This document shows positions 11,793-57,190 of a stretch of 64,000 bases of DNA, piece after piece; positions within the stretch are counted from its first letter, which is position 1; the number at the start of each line of letters is the position of its first letter. The position numbers and the translations under genes were made by a program. Source of the stretch: Polytrichum commune (lineage: Eukaryota > Streptophyta > Polytrichopsida > Polytrichales > Polytrichaceae); the NCBI GenBank assembly GCA_950295325.1, contig OX485804.1, positions 10,168,001-10,232,000 of the forward strand. The letters are read 5' to 3'. The notes under the pieces are model-generated. The model saw nothing but the letters and a program-made list of their open reading frames with translations, had not been told where the DNA came from and made no database searches.

Positions 11793-14519
11793 ATGGGGAA
11801 GTGTTGTTGCTTGGTGACAGTGGTGGTGGTGGCAGTGTTGGTGGTTTCACTTGCAGTTGGAATTCCTCTGGGGATGAAGAAGGCCAAGGAGACGGTGGGA
11901 TTATCGGGTAACAACAATGTGGCAAGCGCAGCTTGCGGGGTAACATCTTACCCAGACACTTGTAACCAGACGCTTTCGGGAAGCAACGGCGCGACTACCT
12001 CGACAGGGGTGACCAAGCTTTCGGTGCAAAGTGCTTCCACGGGAGTGAACAACACAAAGGACTCCGTTATGGCAATGAATTATAACGGCAACTTGACAGC
12101 CGCGGTGGAGGTCTGCTTGGAGTCTTTAGGGTTATCCACCGACCAGCTCGATCAAGCTTTGCAAGCGCTGACCTCAATGAACGCATCTGCTCGCCAAAAG
12201 TCGATGTGTGACATCCAAGCATGGTTAACCGCAGCGATGGAGTTTCATACCACTTGTATTGATGCGTTCATGGAAATTAGTCCCGCAGATGGGAGAGCTC
12301 TCCAAAACCAAACCTCGCACACCGTGGAGCTTTTCAGCAACGCTCTTGCGTTTGCGAACGCCTTGGCAGCTTACGGAGAGGATGTGATGAAATGGAAACC
12401 CACCGGGTTCAGCCTCCCTGCGAATTTCAGCCTTTCTGATCTGGCCAAGAACCCCTTGCCCAAACTCCCTTCATTTGGGAACCGGAGGCTTCTGAGCTCT
12501 CCCGAACTAGACTTGGAAGATTCAGATGAGGGATTCAAGCTACCAAGCTGGGTCGATGAACATGTGCAGCGCCATCTGCTTGCCACTCCCACTTCTTACA
12601 ATGCCATTGTTGCTAAGGACGGATCCGGAAACTTCGAGTCCATCCAGGACGCAGTGGACGCATCACCCAAGGATGGCATGAACGACAGCTCTCGCTATGT
12701 CATCTACATCAAGGTGGGTGAGTACAAGGAGCAAGTGAAGATCCCCAAGTCGGCAGTCAACCTCATGTTCATCGGTGACGGCATTGATCAGACCATCATC
12801 ACTGGGAACAAGAGCGTGGCTCTCACTCCGAACATGACCACCTTCAAATCTGCCACTCTGAGTAAGTTTTATCCCCATTTGAATCGGAAGATCTTACTTA
12901 AACATTCTTGATGAGTTTACAGGACTAACCACATGAATTGCTTTAAAGTACTAGACGTGCCTTCCCGTACGATATGAAACACACCGCAAGTAGTGCAAGA
13001 TGACTAGCAAATCCAAATCGTGCCCATGATAGTCATTTGCCTCCTCAACAATTTTGGAGCTCATATGAACACCTTATTCGTTATCATAGTGAAGGTACTC
13101 ATTAAGTGGTCATATAGGTCCTCCAATCATGTTGACTATTGAACCTTGAATAGTTAACACATTTTGAGCACATAGTTTAATATCTTCTAAACACATGATG
13201 CCTTTTCGATGTCTGGACATACCACTTAATTGTAGATATCCAAATTGTTGTTGTGTTTGATTTAGGCACGTCTATGGTCTATCTTGCCTAGTTTAAGACA
13301 TTCTTATTGGAGGAGGACAGGAGTGAGGGACAACATTGTATGCGGGCGATCACTTTGGTCCAACATTGAGTTTTGTTACCATGGACCATCATGTTGAGTA
13401 CTAAGGCAGATGGGTCTTAAAAGATTACGTTTCTCCGACTATCCCACTTCTCCTAAAATATGAAACATGCGATTAGTACGAGATTGTTATCAAATCCAAG
13501 TCGAGGCCATTGTCAATTTCCTCAGAATTTTTGGAGCTCATTTGAATATCTTATTCATTTTCAAAGTGAAGATTCTCATGCTTAGTAAATGGTCTGGATT
13601 TCAGTCCTCCCAATTATGTTGACTATTGAATCTAGAATGGTTATCAAGTTTTCAGCATGCCGTTAATCTCTTTTAAACATATGTCAGTTTGGTATCCGTT
13701 CTCAGATCAGACCAAATCACATACCACTCCAATATAGGTGTCCTCGTAAGAGAAGTAACCAGGTTAGGGTTGGGTACCTTACTCCGACCACTGACAATAG
13801 TGTTTTGTTTTCCTGTGTGTAACTTAGTTGTGGGAGGCCGTGGATTCATCGGGAAGTATTTCACCGTTCGGAACACAGCTGGATCGAGTGGCCACCAAGC
13901 TGTGGCAGTGAGAGTGAGTGCGGATCAGGTGGCATTCGACAGCTGCTCCTTCGACAGCTTCCAAGACACACTTTACACTCACACTCTTCGCCAATTCTAC
14001 ACCAACTGCACCGTCTACGGAACAGTGGATTTCATATTCGGGAACGCCGCTGCCATTTTTCAGTCTTGCAACATCATCGCCAAGCAGACCACATTAATCG
14101 GCCAACAAGTGACGTACACGGCGCAAGGAAGAATTGACCCACACCAGAAGAGTGGCCTTTCCTTCCAGAACTGCACCTTTGATGCCGTTCCTGAGGTGAA
14201 GAGCAACACCACCTACTACAAAACTTACTTGGGCCGCCCATGGAAGGCGTACTCGGTATGCGTGACTCTAAAGTGTGATTTGATGGAGCACATTGACCCC
14301 TCTGGATGGTTGCCCTGGAACACCTCCGACTTCGGATTAGCCACATCTTTCTTTGCTGAATATCAAAACGTCGGATCTGGATCGAATACCTCCACAAGAG
14401 TCCCTTGGTCTCACCAAATCACTGATGCTGATGTTGCCAGTTCCTACCAGGCCACCGAATTCATTGAAGCCCAGGACTGGCTTTCCAACAACGGCATTGC
14501 CTTGACATTGACCCTCTAA
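11793..14519 (+). CDS. Pectin methylesterase 1 with inhibitor pro-region (two exons)
   Basis: This enzyme de-esterifies cell-wall homogalacturonan. Exons are 11793-12861 and 13828-14519. The donor A^GTAAGT and acceptor TTAG rejoin in phase 1 to read SATLIVGGRGFIG, giving 586 residues, normal for a type with an N-terminal inhibitor (PMEI) domain. The start at 11793 opens with MGKCCCLV and a hydrophobic signal anchor; an in-frame ATG at 11760 is an alternative. The pro-region carries the PMEI cysteines and RRLL near residue 231, a typical processing site. All catalytic motifs are present: GEYKE, QAVAVR, FQDTLY (acid/base Asp about 403), DFIFGNA (nucleophile Asp about 424) and LGRPWK (Arg about 493). 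The 966-nt intron holds at least two copies of a dispersed repeat. A paralogue lies 8 kb downstream in the same orientation. Confidence 0.92.
13447..13745 (+). repeat. Copy of a dispersed ~300-bp repeat in the PME1 intron
   Basis: Landmarks are GATTAGTACGAGAT, TTTGGAGCTCAT, AGTGAAGATTCTC, GTTGACTATTGAA, TAGAATGGTTA and, at the far end, TGGTATCCGTTCT and AATATAGGTGTCC. The same string of landmarks recurs at least six times in the window. A more diverged copy lies just upstream at about 12940-13260. It is short, non-coding and probably a MITE, but I could not fix its termini. Confidence 0.5.
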
Positions 14520-28201: not shown

Positions 28202-31200
28202 TTAGTCTTCGAATTCTTCACCCTCTCGCACAGGGGCTTCTGCTAGGCTTTTCTCAAGGCTGGAGAGAACTTGGTGATACACATCTACTTCCTCCTTCGG
28301 CAACAGTCCTTGTTGCAAGGCTGATGAAATGAAAAGGTGCAGTAAATCCTGAGTTTTATGTCGCCACTGTACGCTTTTTTCTTCAGGTATAGATAAGAGC
28401 TGTTGAGAGGCTGTCTCAACAACACATCTTTTTGCTCCATCCTTGCCTAACTCACGACGCCATTTCTCATATGCAATAGCCCAACACTTCAAGACCACAT
28501 TCCGGCATTCCCTCATCCAGCGCTCCTCGAGTTGCTGTTTGACCCTCATAGTCTGAACTTTCTTTTTAGCCATTGCTCGGGTGTGTGCAGAGCTGATCTC
28601 CGGCAAATCTTTTGGGTCAAGGACTCGCATGTATGCACCCAAGAAGAGCGTCTTGTCCGAAATAGCATGAGTAAGACGAGTCTTCTCCATATCCACCTCA
28701 AGGTGTAGGTTGGATTTAAGGAACGTGGTAAGCCTTTTCATAATTTTCAAGCCCGTGCTCTTGTTGCCTGTCAGGCCAACCAGAAAGTCATCACCAACCC
28801 TCACATATGTTACCCTAGTGTAAGTAGGGTCTTTGTAATCTATGCGACTAATTCGCAATTTTTTTGCCATCGCCAGGCGATGCTGTTTTTCACGCCTCAA
28901 TTGTTCAGAATTTCCACCTAACCTAGCCATAGTACTCTTGTCAATAAACATAAGCCTGCGATATGCAGGACTTATGGTCCTTTTGGCTGCAGTATTCCAT
29001 TCCTGTTTTATCGCTTCAACCTCTTCATCAAGTTTCTGGAAATAGATATCGCATAGAATTGAAGACAATAGGCTTCCGTCTTCAACATTCGATCTTTCCA
29101 TACCCACTATTCCTGCATTGAACATCTTTCTCAATGTGTCAAGAAACCGCTGGTCCTGCACCTTCTCCCGAATAATGCTCTGCAGTCTCTTCTGAGTTGC
29201 TTCATTATAGCTCTTTTCCACGTCAAAATTCATGAACCACGATGTCCCTTTCCATCCATATTTGACAAACTCAAAGGCTCTATGTTTGCAATTGAAAGCA
29301 TGGGAAGACAAGGACGCCCCATATATTTCAGCTAATATGACTCTAAAAGCTTCTAATACTATTTGATCTTTGGGATAAATAACCCGAATCGACCTCATCC
29401 CCTCCCTCTGCCCCAGCACAGGTATGTTGACGCGCCTCACAGGTCTAAACTCGTATGTCCCAGCCCGCAACTCATCCGCACATTGCTCAAACCAATTCCA
29501 ACCAACAGTCTCCTGGGAGGAAAATATCCTGCTCATTCCTTTATTATTCTTGAGGTTTTCATAGGCTGATGCTAATGCATGAGGATCCGCAATGCGCTCA
29601 ATCACCTTTCGATGTTTCCCATCCCCATGCGGTCGCAGTCTTGAAACCTCACTCAGATCATCCAACTGGCCATAATCTGAATCTCCAATTTCACTCGGCC
29701 TGAAATCATGCTCTTCAGTGCCTACTATTGTCGACTCACTTTCACCTCTTGGCAGGTCAAAATTCTCGCCTACCTCAGGTGGTTCAGTGTCTCCTGTGTT
29801 TGAAGAGATTTCACATTCCTCATTTAAGCACTCGGTTATTTGGTCTTCAGCTCCCTGCAAGTACTTTACAATGTCCAGGGCCTCACTTGATAATCCTCTC
29901 GAGTGAGTCATTCTGAACAGGGCTGCATTAGAAGACAATCTAAGAGCTGGCAGGACACCTCCCAGGTCAGTCCTAAATTGAGTAGCCTCCTGCAATGGAG
30001 GAAGCACCACAATATATCAAAATTGATTTCACATTGCTTATGCTCCAACCTAAAACCCTGAACTACATTCTGATTTCCAAATCCTGACTCCCAATCGCAA
30101 ATCCAATGCAGCAGCAACATGAAAACGAACCACGATGTCATTTAGGCACATCACAAAGCATAATTTTCTCACCTGCACCTTATGATACTTGCCAAAGTCA
30201 CCCTCCCGGTAGTAGGCCAAAGTTCTCCTTGCTATTTTGTCTCTCTTCAATGCTGCTGTAGAAGACAATTCACGAGCTGGCAGAACAGTCCCCAGACCAG
30301 TCCTCCATTGAAAAGTGTCCTGCAACGGTGGAACCATCACAATATATCAACACTATTTTCACATCAATTCAATCACATCAAACCACAACATCAAGTCAAT
30401 ACCTTGAACTCCTAAAACCCTCTGCACTCACTATTTCCCACTTTCCATGTAAACGAGTAGCGCCAACCTCGCGAATCAACTTCATTGTGCTCCAACCTTA
30501 AACCCTCAACTCCAAAACCTGGCTCCCAGTCCAATGCGGCAGCAAAATGAAAAGGAACCACGGTGTGATTTAGGCACCACAAGAGCATCACACAGAGTAA
30601 TTTTCCCACCTGAAACATCTGATAATTGCCAAAGTCAACGTTATGGTAGTAGGCCCAAAATCTCCTTCCAATTTTGTGTCCCTCCAATCCCTCAAATGCA
30701 GCCGTAAAAGACAATTTACGAGCTGGCAGGTCAGTCCCCAGACCAGTCCCCATTTGAAGAGCCTCCTGCAATGGTGGAAGCATCACAATATATATTCAAT
30801 GATTTCACATCCATTCAATCACATCAAACTACAACATCGAGTCAATACCTTGAAGTCCTAGAACCCTCTGCACTCACTATTCCCCACTTTCCATGTAAAC
30901 GAGTAGCGCCAACCTCGAGGTTCAACTTGATTGTGCACGAACCTTAAACCCTCAACCCTAAATTCCAAATCCTGAATTCCCATCGCAAACCCAATTTGGC
31001 AGCGAGATGAAAGCGAACCACGGTGCAATGTAGGCACATCACAAGAGCATCACACAGCGTAATTTTTCCACCCGCACCTTCTGATACTTGCCAAAGACGC
31101 CGTTATGGTAGTAGGCCAAAACTCTCCTTCCGATTTTGTCTCCCTTCAATGCCGCCGTAGAAGACAATTTACGAACTGGTTGAGGAGCCTCCTGCAATGG

Positions 31201-31671: not shown

Positions 31672-33149
31672 CGTTACGCACACACTCTACAACACTTTCT
31701 TCAGACTTCTTGTCGATCATTCAGTGTCGCAATTGGCAGGGCCTTTCACCCATCTCTGATTCCTCAACATCACGCTTCGAAGACCGGATTTCTTCATCTC
31801 TTCCTCCTCTAAGTTACATCACATCCGCAACGTATGTGATGTTATTACTGTCTCTGCATACAAATTTCCAAAGGCAAGTTTCTTTAGGTGAACCACACAT
31901 TCAAACACATCCGAAAATGTCATGGTCCAACAAATTGTTTACAACGATGAGTGTGCACAACTTTTTCTCTACGGTAATTACGTTACATAATACAGTCTAA
32001 CCTCGTTACTACAACACTCATTTATACGACACCCTCGATATTAAGACACATTTTTGCGAGACCAAATTTTTTAGTTCAAAACTCCCTCTTTTATACAACT
32101 ACGACATTTAGAATCTCCATTTTGTCATATCAAAGAGGTAGTTAATGCTAAAATTCCTTTTATCTATGTAATGTGTATCTAAAATACATCCATTTTCACT
32201 TGGGAACTACTTGGAAACTTCACTTATCATTGGGAATTTGATGATAATTAGGGTAACTAATGTAGAATGGACATGGTTAGGGTTAAAGTGGCCTCTTGCC
32301 TAGTATGTTGCCTTGTACACGGGTGATATAATATCACCAATACTTGATGCTAAACATCATGTATCATTGTTGTCTAGTTTCTTATTAAAGAACTCTTTAT
32401 ATTCTGATGTTAATGAAATTATTAGTTTTCAAAAGTTAGTTGGAAATTTGGATAAGATGACAGTTGCTAACTTGGATAGGCAACACTATAGATCTTTGGA
32501 CTCCTGTTTCAAAAGTTCTTGAGAATATTTGTATTTGTTGGCTCTGTCTATAGGATAGAGACTATGCATCAACTTCTTCTTTTCAAGAGCAAATTTCCTA
32601 ACCACTTTGTGTTCACACTTGGACGTTACTTGTTCTTGTTATTTTGGTCCACTTTATGTAATGTGGATGTTAACTATAGTTTTTATATATATATATACAA
32701 GTGCTCCCTAAAATGCATTGAAAGAAATCTAGTTAACTATAGTTAATTTGGCAGTTCTTGATTATTTATTTTAAAATTTTCGGGTGATAAATGAGTAGCT
32801 TCAATCCTTGACTTGTATTTGAGAAGAAGGTGCACAAAATCCAAGAAAGATTTGGTATAGTGAATAGCCATGGATTGACGTGAGCAAAGTAATCAACTAC
32901 AATTGTAGTCTTTCATAGCAAAAGATAGAGCCTCACAGTTCTACCGTTTTCTTGTTTAGAATTACAAGTTATTATTTCATATCATCTATATTGCTTAAAC
33001 TCGTTGTATATATTTTTAAGCTCATATTACTTATGTTTTCATATTCCCTCGATAATACGACAACTTTATGCCATTTGTCATATTAATGAGAAGACGACAC
33101 CTCAATAAGACAATTTTTTTTTTGTTTCCCAAACGTGTCATACTAAAGA

Positions 33150-43897: not shown

Positions 43898-46800
43898 TCA
43901 ATCACAAGGAAAGATGTTGGGAAGGACAGTCTTCACTTTTATTGTATCGTTTTGCAGTTTGTTTATGAGTTCATCGTTTTGCGTAATCAATTGGCAAAGA
44001 ATCTTCTGATCAGCTTCTGCTTTCCTCTTCTCTAGCAGTGGGTCCACATAGGCAGTTCCTGCTCTATGCTTCAAGTCAAAGTTGATGTTGTTCATCTTCT
44101 CCTTGATGTCTGCAATGATGTGATAAATAGCTGCGTTTTCCTTTGTCAGCAGTCGTAGTTGGTTGGTGGCAGCTTCACTTCTCCACATCCAAAGGGTGAG
44201 GTCATGTGTGAATTCAACCTCCTGGTTTCGCAGACGGTCCCTTAAGAAGTTCAAATCCTTTTTGATGCTGATGATATCCAAAGTCTCATCTGATATTGGC
44301 TGACCAAATTTGAGCAACTGGACTTCCATATATTTGTTTTCTGTATCCCACGTCTTCTTCTCTTGCAACCATCTCTCTCTATTTAAGTTAGTGTGCTCCC
44401 TGTGGAGCTCTTTGTGGAGTTGCCTCCACGAGACAATCTGTTGTCCGTGTGCCTCAATTTGGTCCTTCAAGCCTTGCAACTGTCCAGAAGTGAAGATAAG
44501 ACCTCCGAAAAGATCACGAGGCACTGAATTTCCATCATCCATGTACTCGATTTGGCTCAAGATGATAGTAAGGGCAATTTCTACATTGTTCAATGAGGTT
44601 TGTTTCAGCGTTTGAAACTTCCGGATTTCCGTCTCCACCGCTTTGACTTGTGTTTTTAAAGCATTTGTTTTTTTGATAAAAGTTCCTTTCTCTTTCAACA
44701 AGAGATCGATTACCTTGTTTTGATCAAGGATCTGATAATCAAGCTCACAACGTTGATCTCGTAGGGCAACCATCTTTTGGTACAATACAGGGTCAGCCTT
44801 GGGGGGGCACTCCTCCACAAAATCCTCATCCTCGTATTCATCTTCATCCTCATCGGCCTCAACTTCCATATCTGATTCATCTGAATCATCTGAATCACCT
44901 GCACCTTCTTTTTTCTTTTTTGGTCGTCTCATTTTCTTGGTGTACATTCGGTGAAGCACGTCATGTGCAGGGTTAACCTCCAAAGGCAAATTCATCGCTT
45001 CCCATTGGGTATAGAGGTTCTGCCTGGCATCTATAAAGGTTTGAACTAGCTCCTTATTTGCATCCACCACCTTCTCATGCTCACCTAACTCAAACAACAT
45101 TGCTGCCTCTGCAGCAAGCTTCTCCCGGTGACGAGCATCTAAGGCCTCTTCTGTCGGCTGAAGAACCCGAAGCACTTTCAATTCTTGGTAAAGGGTAAGT
45201 GTTTTGATGTCAGCACATTTCATGCAAATCTCGAGACGATACTTGGTCACTCGCAAATCCTCAAGCTCAACATCAAAAGCGGTGATTTTATTCATCATCT
45301 CCACCTCCAACTGCGACTTCTCAAACCGAAGCCTAATATTGGTGGCTTCCTTCTCGGCTTCTTCCAATGGTGAAAGAACAATTTTAGCAACCACCTCGAT
45401 TTTCCGTTTGGGACCCCTCACTGGGGCAACCTTCTCTTGCACTGCTACTTGTTCAATTTCAGGTTCTACTTGCTTCACTTCTTTTGGTTTAGGGCCAGCC
45501 CCCATACCGCCTAAGCCACCTCCTTCTTTGGCCTTGCTTTCAGCGGCAGCGGTTGCCGCAGCTTCGGCTGCTAGCTTGTCAAGATAAATTTTTTGTTCCT
45601 CCTCAGTGACTTCCACTCTTATTTCTGGTTGCTCAGCCTTTTGCATGTCAGGCAAAGGGATAAGTGGATCATTTGACGATATTTTTTTGTTGATATTTGC
45701 GATCCGCCCTTGTAACATCCGTAAATTCTTGAGAAGCAATGTTTTCTTCTCGCGCAGAGCAAGAAATGTGTTGTTGTAGACCATTTTGGTCTTATAAACA
45801 GCTTCCCCAAACAATATAATTTCATTTCGTTTTAAATAGGCGTTGGTGTATTTGTCATCGGGGACAATATAATCTTTATCAGACTTTAATTTAAAATCAC
45901 CTCTATTCGTTTGAGCCCATTCGATACTTTCCGCATCCTCGTGAGTCACCCATGTCAAATCAGGTTTTGTTGCAAGCAGAGCAATCCACTCTCTTGCTCG
46001 TTGCTTCAAAAGCCGTCGTCTGTACTCCAACTTTGTGATTCCGGGCTCATCCGCTCTCTCTATCTTCTCTTTCCTCTTCAGCTTGTCATCCTGAGAGTAA
46101 TCTTTCTCTCCTTGTTTTGATTTATCTCTTGTTACTGACGCTCGTCGCCCAAGCCAACCTTCACGTTGTGCATTTGCAAAAAACATTTGAAATTGAGGTG
46201 ATAATTTGGGAGTGCGAAATGTTGTGGTATAGGTACCTGATACAAAAGCGTGTAGGACTATGTATTCCACCTCCAAAGGGTCAAGGAAAAACCCAAACAA
46301 TTTTCGCAATGCAACATTCCTCTTCTCAGAGTCCCACTGGAGTTCATTGCGTGCTTGTTGTACCTCCGCTAGTGTTTCTGCTTTGAGCATACCTTCAATA
46401 CGATGATCAATTACAAAATCTTTGGGTTGAAGTTGTTTATTCCGTTCGGCCTCTTTGTTTAGCTTGAGGAGTTTGGAAAGTGACATCCTTATCTCTTCGA
46501 TCTTCGATATAACACCTACTTTTGCTTCCATTGCTAGCCGGTTAATTTCATCTTGCTCGACCTTTGCTCTTTGTTCTTCAATACTCAACATGTTTGCGGC
46601 AACATCATTGACATCACCCTCCACATCTCTTGGGCTAGTGGCTTTTGGTGGTTCTAGCTTCTCGGTAACAAAGCCAATGTTATGAATAAAGAAACTTCCA
46701 CCTTTTGACACACTTGCCAGAAACTGGTCATCAAAGCTAAAAGTGGCCCCGGTTACAACGCCATAGAAGCCATCATGTAGACCAGCCTCCCAGTACTTGG

Positions 46801-48988
46801 ACCCAAGTTGGATCTGACCTGGCATGATATGTTCTTGAATGCGAACTACACCATTATCAGATCCTGAGACGATGTATTTTGCTGACTCCGTGTATCTGAT
46901 ACATGAGATGGGCTTCTTGGACCACTCAGTGTAGCCCATGGATTCAATGGAATCTACATGACATTCGAATATGTAACCTGATGCAAGACCTTCAGTTGCG
47001 ATATAGAAACTATTCATGTTTCCATTGGTGTACAATATGACACGAATTGGGTACACAGTGCCAGGAGGGTCCTCCAATTCAATAGGCTCCGGTGGCGGTG
47101 GTGGAGGGGTTGGAGGCTTCGGTGGTATGTCTTCCAACGATTCAATAGGTGCCTCTCCTACAGGCTTCGCTTCTTCACCCTCCTTTGGAGCCTCTCCTTC
47201 CTTTGGAGTTTCACCCTCCTTTGGAGCCTCCCCTTCCTTTGGAGCTTCACCCTCGGGCTTTGGAACCTCCCCTTCCTTTGGAGCTTCACCACCATTTTGA
47301 GCCTCGCCTTCTTTGGGTGCCTCGCTTTGCACTTTCACTTCCTCTGGTGGAGGTGGCGGGAGAGGCGCTATTTTTTTGGCAATTGGAGGTCGTTTGAAAC
47401 TGAAAGGTGTCTTTACCAAATCGTTGAGTATAAAGGACTTTGATGTGTCGATATCAGTTCTAGGACAACCAACTTCCATGATGACTCCATTAGAACATCC
47501 AACAAGTAATTTGAGCCCATCATGTGACCAGTCCATGCATGTTATTGGTCCCGGCACCATTGTGTATCCAAGAGGTCTGAATGAGTTGGCGCAATGAAAG
47601 TAGAAAATGCTTCCATCTCCAGAGACCGAAGCCAACATTTGTCCATCTTGTGTCCAACCTAGGGCGGTCACAGCCAACTTGTGAGGCTTAGCTGCAACAG
47701 ATAACCTCCAGTGGTCTTTGGTGTGCGTGAGAACCCGCACTACGCCGTCCTTGAAACCAACGACAACCGATTGGCCAGTGCGGTCTATTGTTAATGGAAG
47801 CCAACGTATGACAGTGCATGCTCCATTGAATTTTCTTTTGTATAAAGCGCCCTCCTCCTTGAAATTGTACAACCGAACTGTACCATCGGACCCAGCTGAT
47901 GCAATATCATAGTTGCATGGTGAACTTGTGACCCCTGCTATAGGCCCAGCATGGAATTCAAGCAGTTTCTTCATCTTAAAGGATGGAAATTCAGATCTCC
48001 ATAATGCCCCACCCTCATCCTGAATGATCCAATGGTCCTTCTCGCAAATAATTCTCTTGATCTGGCATTCTGGATCCACCTGCACCTCTTTGGTTGGAAG
48101 AATCTCACACACAAGTTTGTCGTCTCCATCATTCGCTGCTTCCAACCAATCTAGATTCCAGGTTCGAATATATCCATCTTGTCCAGCACTAGTCAATTTT
48201 CCAGCATCTTCCTCAAGGAGAATCCACTCGATCATCCCGTCGTGGCACATGACTTCATCTCCTGGCCTTTTGAGTTGACACTTGATAAGAGAGTCGTCCC
48301 AAACCAAAATCGTGCCCAATTCTGTACCTGTCAAGACCTTGCTATTCTTCAACTCATAGTAAGCTGCAATGTCACTGATGGGTACCGTTCCAAATTTGGC
48401 TATAGCACCTTCTAACTTCAAGCCGGTGAAAGTGGAAGCCATTTTCCAAAAACGAACATGTCCTACTCCTGATGTCAACAGTTGGCCTTTAAAGTACCTT
48501 GAGAAATCCACATTGAAAACCTCTTGTGAGAAAGCCTTTGTTCGGAGGATCATAAGCTCGTTCTCCCAATCCCACACCGTAAGTAGATAATCCGGGTGTG
48601 CTCCAACTGTCGCCAATTGATCGCCATCAGAATTGTAGCTGGCAGCTGTGAAGAACCTCTCTGTTCCCTCCACCAAGGTCTTGTAAATCTCTAGTGCAGG
48701 ATATGAGTATATATAAATGTTTGGATTTACACCCTTTTCGCATACAGCGTAGTAAGTCCTTTTTGGGTGAACTGCAACACATCCAATTCCATTTCCTTCC
48801 ACACTAGGTTGAAATGTTGAGATATTGGTTCTGAGGTCCAAAAAGTGGACAATGTCACCACAAGAATGGATGAGTATATTAGGAGCAATATATGCGATAT
48901 TATTTCTCTTGCTTCCCTCAAATCCAAAAGATTTGATCAATTTGACGGTTTCCCGAGGAATCTTCTGCTCCTCGCCGTTGATATCCAT
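43898..48988 (-). CDS. CFAP44: Cilia- and flagella-associated protein 44 (WD-repeat axonemal protein), single exon
   Basis: A 1696-residue uninterrupted frame, close to the length of animal and algal CFAP44/FAP44. In other organisms this protein is part of the tether linking inner dynein arm f to the axonemal doublet. The first about 850 residues hold two blocks of WD repeats, including family-diagnostic LRTKAFSQEVFNVDF and GHVRFWKMASTFTGLKLEG. Between the blocks, residues about 555-635 form a Pro/Glu/Lys linker of repeated APKEGE units and polyproline. The C-terminal half is coiled coil with an acidic stretch at about 1360-1390 (DDSDESDMEVEADEDEDE). The ATG at 48988 is the first after an in-frame TGA. 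No intron interrupts 5.1 kb, although neighbouring genes have introns. Its presence implies motile sperm. Confidence 0.93.
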   Translation of the reverse strand: MDINGEEQKIPRETVKLIKSFGFEGSKRNNIAYIAPNILIHSCGDIVHFLDLRTNISTFQPSVEGNGIGCVAVHPKRTYYAVCEKGVNPNIYIYSYPALEIYKTLVEGTERFFTAASYNSDGDQLATVGAHPDYLLTVWDWENELMILRTKAFSQEVFNVDFSRYFKGQLLTSGVGHVRFWKMASTFTGLKLEGAIAKFGTVPISDIAAYYELKNSKVLTGTELGTILVWDDSLIKCQLKRPGDEVMCHDGMIEWILLEEDAGKLTSAGQDGYIRTWNLDWLEAANDGDDKLVCEILPTKEVQVDPECQIKRIICEKDHWIIQDEGGALWRSEFPSFKMKKLLEFHAGPIAGVTSSPCNYDIASAGSDGTVRLYNFKEEGALYKRKFNGACTVIRWLPLTIDRTGQSVVVGFKDGVVRVLTHTKDHWRLSVAAKPHKLAVTALGWTQDGQMLASVSGDGSIFYFHCANSFRPLGYTMVPGPITCMDWSHDGLKLLVGCSNGVIMEVGCPRTDIDTSKSFILNDLVKTPFSFKRPPIAKKIAPLPPPPPEEVKVQSEAPKEGEAQNGGEAPKEGEVPKPEGEAPKEGEAPKEGETPKEGEAPKEGEEAKPVGEAPIESLEDIPPKPPTPPPPPPEPIELEDPPGTVYPIRVILYTNGNMNSFYIATEGLASGYIFECHVDSIESMGYTEWSKKPISCIRYTESAKYIVSGSDNGVVRIQEHIMPGQIQLGSKYWEAGLHDGFYGVVTGATFSFDDQFLASVSKGGSFFIHNIGFVTEKLEPPKATSPRDVEGDVNDVAANMLSIEEQRAKVEQDEINRLAMEAKVGVISKIEEIRMSLSKLLKLNKEAERNKQLQPKDFVIDHRIEGMLKAETLAEVQQARNELQWDSEKRNVALRKLFGFFLDPLEVEYIVLHAFVSGTYTTTFRTPKLSPQFQMFFANAQREGWLGRRASVTRDKSKQGEKDYSQDDKLKRKEKIERADEPGITKLEYRRRLLKQRAREWIALLATKPDLTWVTHEDAESIEWAQTNRGDFKLKSDKDYIVPDDKYTNAYLKRNEIILFGEAVYKTKMVYNNTFLALREKKTLLLKNLRMLQGRIANINKKISSNDPLIPLPDMQKAEQPEIRVEVTEEEQKIYLDKLAAEAAATAAAESKAKEGGGLGGMGAGPKPKEVKQVEPEIEQVAVQEKVAPVRGPKRKIEVVAKIVLSPLEEAEKEATNIRLRFEKSQLEVEMMNKITAFDVELEDLRVTKYRLEICMKCADIKTLTLYQELKVLRVLQPTEEALDARHREKLAAEAAMLFELGEHEKVVDANKELVQTFIDARQNLYTQWEAMNLPLEVNPAHDVLHRMYTKKMRRPKKKKEGAGDSDDSDESDMEVEADEDEDEYEDEDFVEECPPKADPVLYQKMVALRDQRCELDYQILDQNKVIDLLLKEKGTFIKKTNALKTQVKAVETEIRKFQTLKQTSLNNVEIALTIILSQIEYMDDGNSVPRDLFGGLIFTSGQLQGLKDQIEAHGQQIVSWRQLHKELHREHTNLNRERWLQEKKTWDTENKYMEVQLLKFGQPISDETLDIISIKKDLNFLRDRLRNQEVEFTHDLTLWMWRSEAATNQLRLLTKENAAIYHIIADIKEKMNNINFDLKHRAGTAYVDPLLEKRKAEADQKILCQLITQNDELINKLQNDTIKVKTVLPNIFPCD

Positions 48989-53800: not shown

Positions 53801-54397
53801 CAAGATATGTCCTTGGAAGCCACACTAAGGGCCACTCACACATAGGCCCATGACCATTGCACTTTCAAGCACTTTCATTGATGGAAAAGGTAGAGCCAAT
53901 CCAAGTTCACTTCACACTATGTTTGAGGGACCAACATAGTAAGTGAATGCACAATGGATGCAAAGTCTACATGGATTCCTACATGGCATCAAAGGGATGT
54001 TGTTTCATGATCACTTGGATTATTTTCAGAAAACCATCTCAAAAGTAGGTCTAACACAAAATTGGGAGACCAAGGCACTTTAAAGCCTCACAACTGTTGA
54101 TTTATTATATTTTATCATGTGTGAAGACCCCTCATGAATAGATATTCATTGAAATAGCATTTGGTTGAGGGCATGGTCACATATGGCTTCACACTACACT
54201 TGAGGGCATGTGACCACACTAAATGATTTTGGAAGTGTCTTGGGATGGCCTTTGAACATTTCTTTTGGGCTCTCAAGTTTCGTAATCACGGCTCTTGGCT
54301 CGCATGTGAGTGGCCCTAAACCACATACCATTCAAATATAAGTGCTCAATAAGAAAAGTAACCGAATAAGGGTTGTCTACCTTACTGAGGGCCGCTT

Positions 54398-54540
54398 TAC
54401 ACTACAATGGAGAAGTGCACCAGTCGGTCAAGAATTTTCGCCCAAGACATGGTTGTTTGAGGCGAGGGATGGTATGCCGGAGATGATGAAAAGACAATAA
54501 AATAATGCCTTAAGAAGTCTTGACCGGCCGTAGTGTAACC
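54398..54540. repeat. Small inverted-repeat element next to the palindromic LTR
   Basis: CTTTACACTAC with GGTCAAGAATT at the left and the inverted TCTTGACC with GTAGTGTAA at the right form short terminal inverted repeats of a roughly 145-bp segment. The same TIR-like sequence occurs inverted at about 57780-57820 (CTTGACCGGAGGACTTCTCC, GTAGTGTAAAG). The palindromic LTR element inserted at its right edge. Confidence 0.3.
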
Positions 54541-54610
54541 ACCTGTAATGTAACTAGAATTATTAAGGAATATTCTAACTACATGTGCCAGTGTGTAAGC
54601 AGAAAAAGAT

Positions 54611-55005
54611 GAGAGCTAGACAACTCTCGGTTGAGGATGAATGGAAAGGAGTAAGACAACTCCAGATTGACAACATGTGCACTGGAGTTAGACAGCTCCG
54701 CATTTAGTGCATTGGAACTAGACCATTCCAAGTGAGAACAAGTGCACATGAGTTAGACAACTCTCGATGAGGTGCACAGGAGTTAGACCACTCCATGGAT
54801 AAAGCTAGTTGGAATTAGACAGTTCCAACTAGAAGATTGACTAGTTGGAATTAGACAATTCCAACTAAGAGAAAGGTTGGATGAACCAAGTTGGAATTAG
54901 ACAGTTCCAACTGGAATGAAGGATGAATGTATTTAGTTGGAATTAGATAGTTCCAACTAGAAAGAAGAATGGATGAATCCAATTGGAATTAGACAGTTCC
55001 AATTG
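54611..55005 (+). repeat. Array of about eleven micro-palindromes with a conserved TAGAC core
   Basis: Units include GAGAGCTAGACAACTCTC (54611), GGAGTAAGACAACTCC (54648), GGAGTTAGACAGCTCC (54684), TTGGAACTAGACCATTCCAA (about 54712), GAGTTAGACAACTC, GGAGTTAGACCACTCC, then five of the type GTTGGAATTAGACAGTTCCAAC and finally AATTGGAATTAGACAGTTCCAATT. The core stays TTAGACA or close to it, while the flanks differ between units and still pair with each other. The mirror image of the whole array lies in the other arm. Confidence 0.8.
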
Positions 55006-55299
55006 GAAGAATGGAATTGAGATAAGAGATGAAAGAAGGTTCTAGAAGAACCATAGATAGAAGATTCATAGTAGAACTATGAGATAGAGCTATGAATAGA
55101 ATACTTTTACTATATGTAAATATAGAAAGTAAAAGTAGTGCTTCGGCATAAAAGGAAGCTCGGGGGAGGAGAGAGGATCTTTTTTGTCTCTCTCCTATGG
55201 TCGGGTGGTAGAGCTTCGTTGACCAAACTTTATTTGGTTGCGGTTTGTACTTAGAGGAAGAAATAAAATGATTTGGAACCCAAATGCTAGTAATAAATT

Positions 55300-55311
55300 G
55301 CTCTGATACCA
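55300..55311 (-). promoter_or_regulatory. tRNA-iMet primer-binding site at the palindrome centre
   Basis: The plus strand reads GCTCTGATACCA, so the minus strand is TGGTATCAGAGC, complementary to the 3' end of plant initiator tRNA-Met. It starts reverse transcription in Copia-type elements. Its place exactly between the inner ends of the two inverted arms identifies the arms as LTR-derived. Confidence 0.75.
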
Positions 55312-56406
55312 ATTTATTACGAACCTCTCACCGGTTGGCAATTTGTGTCTTGACCACAAAATCTCAAAGTAAAGAATTGAAACCAACACCAATTTTATTT
55401 CTTCCTCTAAGTACAAACCGCAACCAAATAAAGTTTGGTCAACGAAGCTCTACCACCCGACCATAGGAGAGAGACAAAAAAGATCCTCTCTCCTCCCCCG
55501 AGCTTCCTTTTATGCCGAAGCACTACTTTTACTTTCTATATTTACATATAGTAAAAGTATTCTATTCATAGCTCTATCTCATAGTTCTACTATGAATCTT
55601 CTATCTATGGTTCTTCTAGAACCTTCTTTCATCTCTTATCTCAATTCCATTCTTCCAATTGGAACTGTCTAATTCCAATTGGATTCATCCATTCTTCTTT
55701 CTAGTTGGAACTATCTAATTCCAACTAAATACATTCATCCTTCATTCCAGTTGGAACTGTCTAATTCCAACTTGGTTCATCCAACCTTTCTCTTAGTTGG
55801 AATTGTCTAATTCCAACTAGTCAATCTTCTAGTTGGAACTGTCTAATTCCAACTAGCTTTATCCATGGAGTGGTCTAACTCCTGTGCACCTCATCGAGAG
55901 TTGTCTAACTCATGTGCACTTGTTCTCACTTGGAATGGTCTAGTTCCAATGCACTAAATGCGGAGCTGTCTAACTCCAGTGCACATGTTGTCAATCTGGA
56001 GTTGTCTTACTCCTTTCCATTCATCCTCAACCGAGAGTTGTCTAGCTCTCATCTTTTTCTGCTTACACACTGGCACATGTAGTTAGAATATTCCTTAATA
56101 ATTCTAGTTACATTACACCACCTAGAGGAGAAGTGTATTGGACAACTTCACCAAGAGAAGTCCACCGGACTACTTCACAAAACGGTCAAAGCCGGCCATA
56201 GTAGAAATCTTACCCCCTAAATGACCATTGTATTGATATTTAAACAATTTTATTGATAAAGAAAATGTATATGGCAATGTTTTAGAACTTCTTTCATGAC
56301 AATAATTTATTTGAAAATGTTCCACCTCTATAATACATCCAAATTAAGGTAAATAAGTAGGTAACATTATCTTATTATTAATTTCTAAAGAAATTACATG
56401 TTGGTA

Positions 56407-57190
56407 TAGTCCAACCTCATTAATATGACACTCGTTTACACAACACCCTCAATATTACGACACATTTTTACGAGACAAAACTTTATAGTTCAAAACTCCC
56501 TCTTTTATACGACTACAACACTCGATGATGCAACATATAGAATCTATGTTTTGTCATATTAAATAGGTAGTTAATGCTAGAATTCCTTTCATCTACAATG
56601 TACATCTAAAATACATCCATTTTCACTTGGGAACCACTTGGGAACTTCACTTATTATTGGGAACTTAATGATAATTAGGGTTACTAATGTAGGATGGACA
56701 TGGTTAGGGTGAGAGTGGCCTCATGCCTAGTATGTTGCTTTGTACACGGGTGATGTAATATCACTAGTATCTTGATGCTAAACGTCATGCATCATTGTAG
56801 TCTAGTTTCTTATTAAAGAACTCTTCATATTTTGGTGTTAATGAAATTATTAGTTTCCAAAAGTTAGATGGGAATTTAGATAAGATGACAATTGCTAACT
56901 TGAGTAGGCAACACCAAAGATCTTTGGACTCTTATTTTAAGAGTTCTTGAGAATATTTGTAATTGTTTGGAGTTGTAAGTTATTATTTCATACCATCTAT
57001 ATTGCTTAAACTCGTTGTATATATTTTAAAGCTCATATTACTTATGTTTTCATATTCCCTCAATAATATGACAACTTTATTTTTCATATTGATGAGAAGA
57101 CGACAACTCGATAATACGACTTTTATTGGATTACCCAAAAATGTCATACTAAAGAGGGAGAAAAATAGTGCAAAGATTTCTCCCAGGCCA
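56407..57190 (+). mobile_element. Pogo/Lemi1-like element, related to 31993-33150
   Basis: It starts TAGTCCAACCTCATTAATATGACACTCG after a TA and follows the copy at 31993 through GTTCAAAACTCCCTCTTTTATACGAC, TCCATTTTCACTTGGGAAC, GTACACGGGTGATGTAATATCAC, GGCAACACC.A.AGATCTTTGGACTC and GTCATACTAAAGAGGGAGAA. It lacks about 330 bp present in the other copy (roughly 32560-32930). No transposase is visible. It lies 290 bp from the palindromic LTR element. Confidence 0.5.

Follow-up and report, generated by a model that had tools for sequence, protein, structure and literature searches.

Solo LTRs arise by direct recombination between the two LTRs of an element. The LTR-LTR junctions of 2-LTR circles are reported to be formed by end-joining with small indels (PMC9324142), and autointegration is described as leading to deletion or inversion circles (PMC2644782). 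Inverted LTRs are a feature of DIRS-type retrotransposons, according to the description of this group (PMC5633606), and short foldback inversions captured by end-joining have been reported at breaks in yeast (PMC11724301). Here we describe a locus of Polytrichum commune (assembly GCA_950295325.1, 408 Mb) in which two LTRs face each other around a primer-binding site (PBS). It lies in a stretch of 64,000 nucleotides, hereafter the window (contig OX485804.1, or C2, forward strand, 10168001-10232000), in which all positions are given. Our results point to a palindromic element, at 54544-56117, that is very probably a U5-U5 dimer of LTR cDNA formed before integration and inserted through its two U3 ends, whatever the route by which its arms were joined.

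The arms of the palindrome (54544-55269 and 55392-56117) are 726 nt each, 100% complementary and separated by 122 nt, which bears out the original prediction of identical, LTR-like arms of 726 bp. Complementarity stops precisely at the U3 ends of the LTR; the sequences outside are dissimilar, and a target site duplication (TSD) is present. On both sides it is the U3 terminus of the family that adjoins CCACC, so that U3 ends pointing outward and equivalent LTR ends on the two sides are found as anticipated. The equation of arm with LTR holds only in part: the arms do consist of LTR sequence, but the LTR is about 803 bp long in the retrieved copies of the family, and not 726. The right arm contains it whole, followed by AAT and a 12-nt tRNA-Met PBS, whereas the left arm is cut at LTR position 726; the PBS is thus the continuation of the right arm and not of the left one (Table 1). 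The locus differs from a complete LTR retrotransposon, as its LTRs are facing and their identical stretches are no more than 122 nt apart, and from a solo LTR, as it is made of two facing LTRs plus a PBS.

Table 1. Features of the palindromic element and of its borders, in window positions.
Feature	Position	Strand	Basis
Target site duplication CCACC, left	54539..54543	.	Single CCACC in 10/10 retrieved empty sites
Left arm, LTR positions 1-726, U3 end outward	54544..55269	+	Arm comparison
20-nt filler in place of left-arm LTR 727-797	55270..55289	+	6-bp fold-back ATTTGG-AAC-CCAAAT at 55271-55285
GTAATAAATT, inverted copy of U5 end + AATT	55290..55299	+	10-bp stem with 55311-55320, 11-nt loop
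Primer-binding site TGGTATCAGAGC, 12 nt	55300..55311	-	Complements tRNA-Met gene 3' end including CCA
AAT separating LTR and PBS	55312..55314	-	Same as in LTR-paired copies
Right arm, complete 803-bp LTR, U3 end outward	55315..56117	-	LTR comparison
Target site duplication CCACC, right	56118..56122	.	Single CCACC in retrieved empty sites

On the minus strand, the right arm passes through the 803-bp LTR and AAT into TGGTATCAGAGC, which complements the 3' end plus CCA of a gene of this genome called tRNA-Met by ARAGORN. The PBS predicted at the centre is therefore there, inside the 122-nt spacer. Its assignment to an initiator tRNA stands as far as tRNA-Met is concerned, "initiator" being our assumption from a sequence motif that matches 12 places in the genome, of which one was checked. 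The right arm runs U5-AAT-PBS as far as the tRNA match extends, and the turn-around sits at the end of the 12-nt PBS. At the next base the tRNA complement is G, whereas the element and the palindrome both have A. After the PBS and this A comes AATTTATTAC, which is the LTR end plus AATT in reverse complement, followed by TAGCATTTGGGTTCCAAATC and then by the reverse complement of LTR positions 726 to 1; from this order it follows that the left arm lacks positions 727-797.

Within the window, an exact 10-bp stem around a loop of 11 nt is seen at one place, the centre of the palindrome. The 6-bp stem of the filler is equalled by 145 of 20,000 shuffles (0.7%) and by 205 of 20,000 20-mers of the window (1.0%); since chance alone gives this about once in 100 cases, the filler fold-back is weak evidence. 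At 0 or 1 mismatch the filler matches nothing in the genome but itself, and at 2 mismatches it has 5 further matches, against 2 for a control. A 10-mer of the filler at window position 54155 was considered as its source and judged a chance match. With its 10-bp fold-back of the LTR end and its 6-bp fold-back of the filler, the centre looks like the outcome of two successive fold-back syntheses.

The flanks of the palindrome are part of a high-copy repeat. When the joined flanks, with one CCACC retained, were searched in the genome (40 of 2135 candidates scored), all 40 listed matches crossed the join, and the ten empty sites retrieved from these 40 scored matches all hold one CCACC, with no insert and no gap at the join. 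CCACC is therefore a true target duplication and the palindrome entered as one unit, in agreement with the predicted single integration with a 5-bp duplication. This TSD has the usual size for the LTR family, identical 5-bp flanks being found in 12/12 LTR-paired copies and in 14/22 single LTR pieces retrieved. The termini used in the insertion are both U3 ends; integrase would have used two of them because no U5 end was available. Such a pairing is chemically plausible, since in vitro a linear donor whose single U3 end is a gain-of-function variant is reported to be integrated in a concerted manner by the integrase of Rous sarcoma virus (PMC3579926). The window also contains a dispersed repeat in two stretches, 31991-33069 and 56405-57080, of which the second is situated just past the insertion site.

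When the left arm was searched in the genome, 52 matches came from the 40 candidates scored out of 693; they include direct pairs, most of them about 5.3 kb apart. The palindrome itself carries no pol, and the pol and chromodomain described here were read from pieces of one LTR-paired family copy, on C3: Pfam finds RVT_1, RT_RNaseH and Integrase_H2C2, in this order, in a 1.6-kb piece, and a Chromo domain (PF00385, 4.5e-08) lies immediately 5' of the 3' LTR. Because of this RT-RNaseH-integrase order and of the chromodomain before the 3' LTR, the source is placed in a Ty3/Gypsy chromodomain family, to which the LTR, the PBS and the 5-bp TSD of the palindrome are common. A Copia element with the same LTR, as originally suggested, was searched for and the matching family turned out to be this one; the Copia assignment was rejected on the domain order and the chromodomain. 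Twenty-nine retrieved LTRs (L001-L012, L015-L031) show 2-6 substitutions in 803 positions relative to the right arm. The source of the arms is, as judged from sequence, a young Ty3/Gypsy chromodomain (chromovirus) element.

In this family, the 5' LTR is followed by AATTGGTATCAGAGCAGG in 11/12 LTR-paired copies, the twelfth (L028) having ...GCATG, and GAAGGGGGAGAT stands directly before the 3' LTR in 11/12, with one base different in the twelfth (L031). The outer borders of the palindrome, that is its two U3 ends, read TG...CA, unlike close relatives. The 3' LTRs of the paired copies end in TA in 11 cases out of 12 and in CA in one; among L001-L048, divergent single LTRs are mostly TG...CA and close copies mostly TG...TA, and a 5' LTR ending in CA is present in L028, a close copy.

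A shared variant links the two arms. LTR position 405 is T in both of them and C in 45 of the 46 other LTR sequences compared, 24 of which come in pairs from 12 elements. The remaining T405 belongs to a divergent copy, L045, 71 substitutions away, and the exact 41-mer around T405 is found, in the assembly, in the two arms only. In a count of pair-private variants, which includes two bases past the LTR and thus inflates within-pair differences (these were set aside), the arms scored 0 because L045 also has T at this column. The shared T405 indicates that the arms derive from one template, or from two cDNAs of one source element lying outside the assembly.

The outer part of the LTR (54613-55005, and its mirror 55656-56048) carries 11 short hairpins spaced 30-46 nt apart, as counted on the right-arm LTR alone. 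Their loop core is TAGAC in nine, AAGAC in one and TAGAT in one, and the T of this last loop is the private T405. The stems vary (GGAG/CTCC, GAGAG/CTCTC, TTGGAA/TTCCAA and longer). A stem of at least 4 is found at 12 of the 21 AGAC or AGAT sites, one of these 12 being a spacer between two hairpins. The array could aid the fold-back of a strand.

The join centred on U5/PBS, the two U3 ends and the TSD all support the suggestion that an aberrant product of reverse transcription was made and then integrated. In the reading that we prefer, the 5' end of a reverse transcript (U3-R-U5-AAT-12-nt PBS), present twice, would have been joined U5 to U5, and the resulting dimer, bounded on either side by a U3 terminus, would have been inserted by integrase with the 5-bp duplication typical of the family. 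As to how the arms were joined, we infer from the centre that plus-strand fold-back synthesis followed by host end-joining is the most likely route, which we hold with about even confidence. The plus strand would have halted at the end of the 12-nt PBS and folded back, copying 10 nt of its own U5 end; a second short fold-back would have made the filler; and host end-joining would have linked it to a second U5 end, trimmed to 726 and belonging to the same or to a sister cDNA. GAGG, expected if the plus-strand strong stop had copied the tRNA past 12 nt, is absent. As the A that follows the PBS is also the next base of the element itself, the break may also lie one base further on, which leaves a strong-stop end unproven. 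Against this reading stand also that the palindrome is a single instance and that its filler has no other genome match at 0 or 1 mismatch.

For the joining step alone, self-priming of reverse transcription is a tentative alternative with a real, if lesser, chance of being correct, and it is compatible with the U5-U5 dimer itself. Snap-back of the plus-strand strong stop, or closure of a hairpin with the minus-strand 5' end, would give a near-perfect palindrome; in a second stage, repair of this unstable structure would have removed LTR 727-797 from one arm and left the 20-bp filler. As known from retroviruses, a minus strand would start A-ATT-TATTAC if one tRNA nucleotide stayed. Hairpin closure at the U5/PBS end predicts exactly ...GAGC-A-ATTTATTAC, as observed, although closure with one leftover tRNA base and fold-back synthesis are inseparable at this point because both yield A-ATTTATTAC. 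T405 in both arms is also expected if one arm templated the other. Self-priming nevertheless requires a second event. Moreover, repair of palindrome centres is expected to eliminate the loop, yet the loop is intact, and a lone hairpin has one U3 end and would need conversion to a two-ended duplex before concerted integration. The dimer could alternatively have been produced after a normal integration, by inversion or deletion within a full-length element, all the more as LTR-paired copies with 5-bp TSDs exist in the family. This is very improbable: the right border is a U3 end touching the TSD, where normal insertion leaves a U5 end, any inversion would need a breakpoint exactly between LTR and TSD, and the empty sites are consistent with one event. 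That the locus is a foldback artefact of sequencing or assembly, as the perfection of the 726-bp arms might suggest, is hardly conceivable, since the palindrome ends at the exact LTR ends between unlike flanks, its centre is asymmetric and holds a filler, and a TSD is present; chance or artefact was rejected on the exact LTR ends, the TSD and the empty sites.

The original prediction had also considered a self-sustaining non-coding family built of facing LTRs; since the palindrome carries a PBS and a U3 end on either side, its mobilisation in trans is imaginable. We regard such a family as extremely improbable, as the palindrome has neither a polypurine tract nor direct LTRs, and a query with its left junction (40 scored of 65 candidates) gave a full-length match at the palindrome only. 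An intact symmetric U5-U5 centre has 0 matches in the genome, with a pattern blind to asymmetric centres like that of the palindrome. Unusual PBS junctions of the family number four: one is the palindrome and three share ATGTTAG, of which one is L028, the 5' LTR of an LTR-paired copy, and the other two were not retrieved. The search for same-layout copies with distinct TSDs, proposed at the outset, revealed no second facing LTR pair among the matches listed (40 of 693 and 40 of 707 candidates scored). With regard to an inverted-repeat (TIR or MITE-like) layout, the junction was likewise found once; each LTR search scored 40 out of roughly 700 candidates, so that there may be more examples, or older ones. 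A pattern of two outward U3 ends separated by 5 bp had 0 matches; it probes adjacent insertions and has little bearing on further palindromes. In other families with the same PBS, searched with patterns that cover some LTR ends and spacings, CA..TTGGTATCAGAGCAA..TG has one match, asymmetric as judged by its letters alone, and CATGGTATCAGAGCATG has three, all retrieved, with an inverted repeat around the PBS in 0/3.

If folded as RNA, the palindrome is 96% paired over 1574 nt in a computed fold. Both LTR promoters should face inward, and a long hairpin RNA, as originally foreseen, would therefore require read-through from outside. With three TATA-like patterns, the left arm has a single match, at 55147, close to its inner end, so that transcripts from its own promoter would carry only about the last hundred bases of the arm before the centre. 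If the preferred reading, a dimer inserted through two U3 ends, is correct, then the locus preserves in a chromosome, as a fossil, an intermediate of reverse transcription and a copying error that is seldom seen, with the strand ends at the U5/PBS turn-around frozen, and the integrase of a plant Ty3/Gypsy element can carry out concerted integration in vivo when both ends are U3 ends. In this way the promoter of a young element could become an inverted repeat in a single step and feed small-RNA silencing. It is possible, if rather unlikely, that U5-U5 dimers regularly accompany the reverse transcription of plant LTR elements as a by-product, the plus strand stalling at the end of the PBS and integrase accepting two U3 ends. 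They would then provide ready-made inverted-repeat loci of the promoter of a young family, which could start its silencing by small RNAs.

Elsewhere in the window, an uninterrupted frame of 1696 aa at 43898-48988 (minus strand) resembles cilia- and flagella-associated protein 44 (best match among PDB sequences, E 1.1e-203), and a pectinesterase is found at 13689-14519; together they would fit a land plant whose sperm swim. A 602-aa frame at 28202-30010 (minus strand), with a weak RVT_1 match (2.7e-05) below the curated cut-off, is a putative nuclear group II intron maturase.

The complete elements closest to the palindrome are the LTR-paired Ty3/Gypsy chromodomain copies of this genome, such as G000:C3:9883416-9889520, whose LTRs are 99.75% identical to the right arm. 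The AAT-PBS junction and the 5-bp TSD habit are the same, but these copies have direct LTRs and a coding internal region, which is absent from the palindrome with its facing LTRs. A solo LTR likewise consists of LTR only, with a TSD and no coding region, but of one LTR instead of two facing ones with a PBS. In DIRS-1, as described, the inverted LTRs enclose three ORFs and a tyrosine recombinase (PMC5633606), whereas the palindrome has none of these and an integrase-type TSD; no ORF of at least 250 aa overlaps it, and its arms are separated by 122 nt. The foldback inversions of yeast resemble the centre of the palindrome, being described as short templated inverted duplications at a 3' end captured by end-joining, but they occur at chromosomal double-strand breaks (PMC11724301), whereas ours would have formed at a cDNA end. 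Titles and opening lines of abstracts among the top results for the open-access literature mention no integrated LTR-LTR palindrome. As they are described, 2-LTR circles (PMC9324142) and autointegration products (PMC2644782) share with the palindrome that all are aberrant fates of linear cDNA; those products are circles, and the palindrome is an integrated, head-to-head U5-U5 dimer. Aberrant LTR cDNA is of a known kind, and the integrated U5-U5 LTR palindrome, for which a precedent may exist, would be a variant of it.
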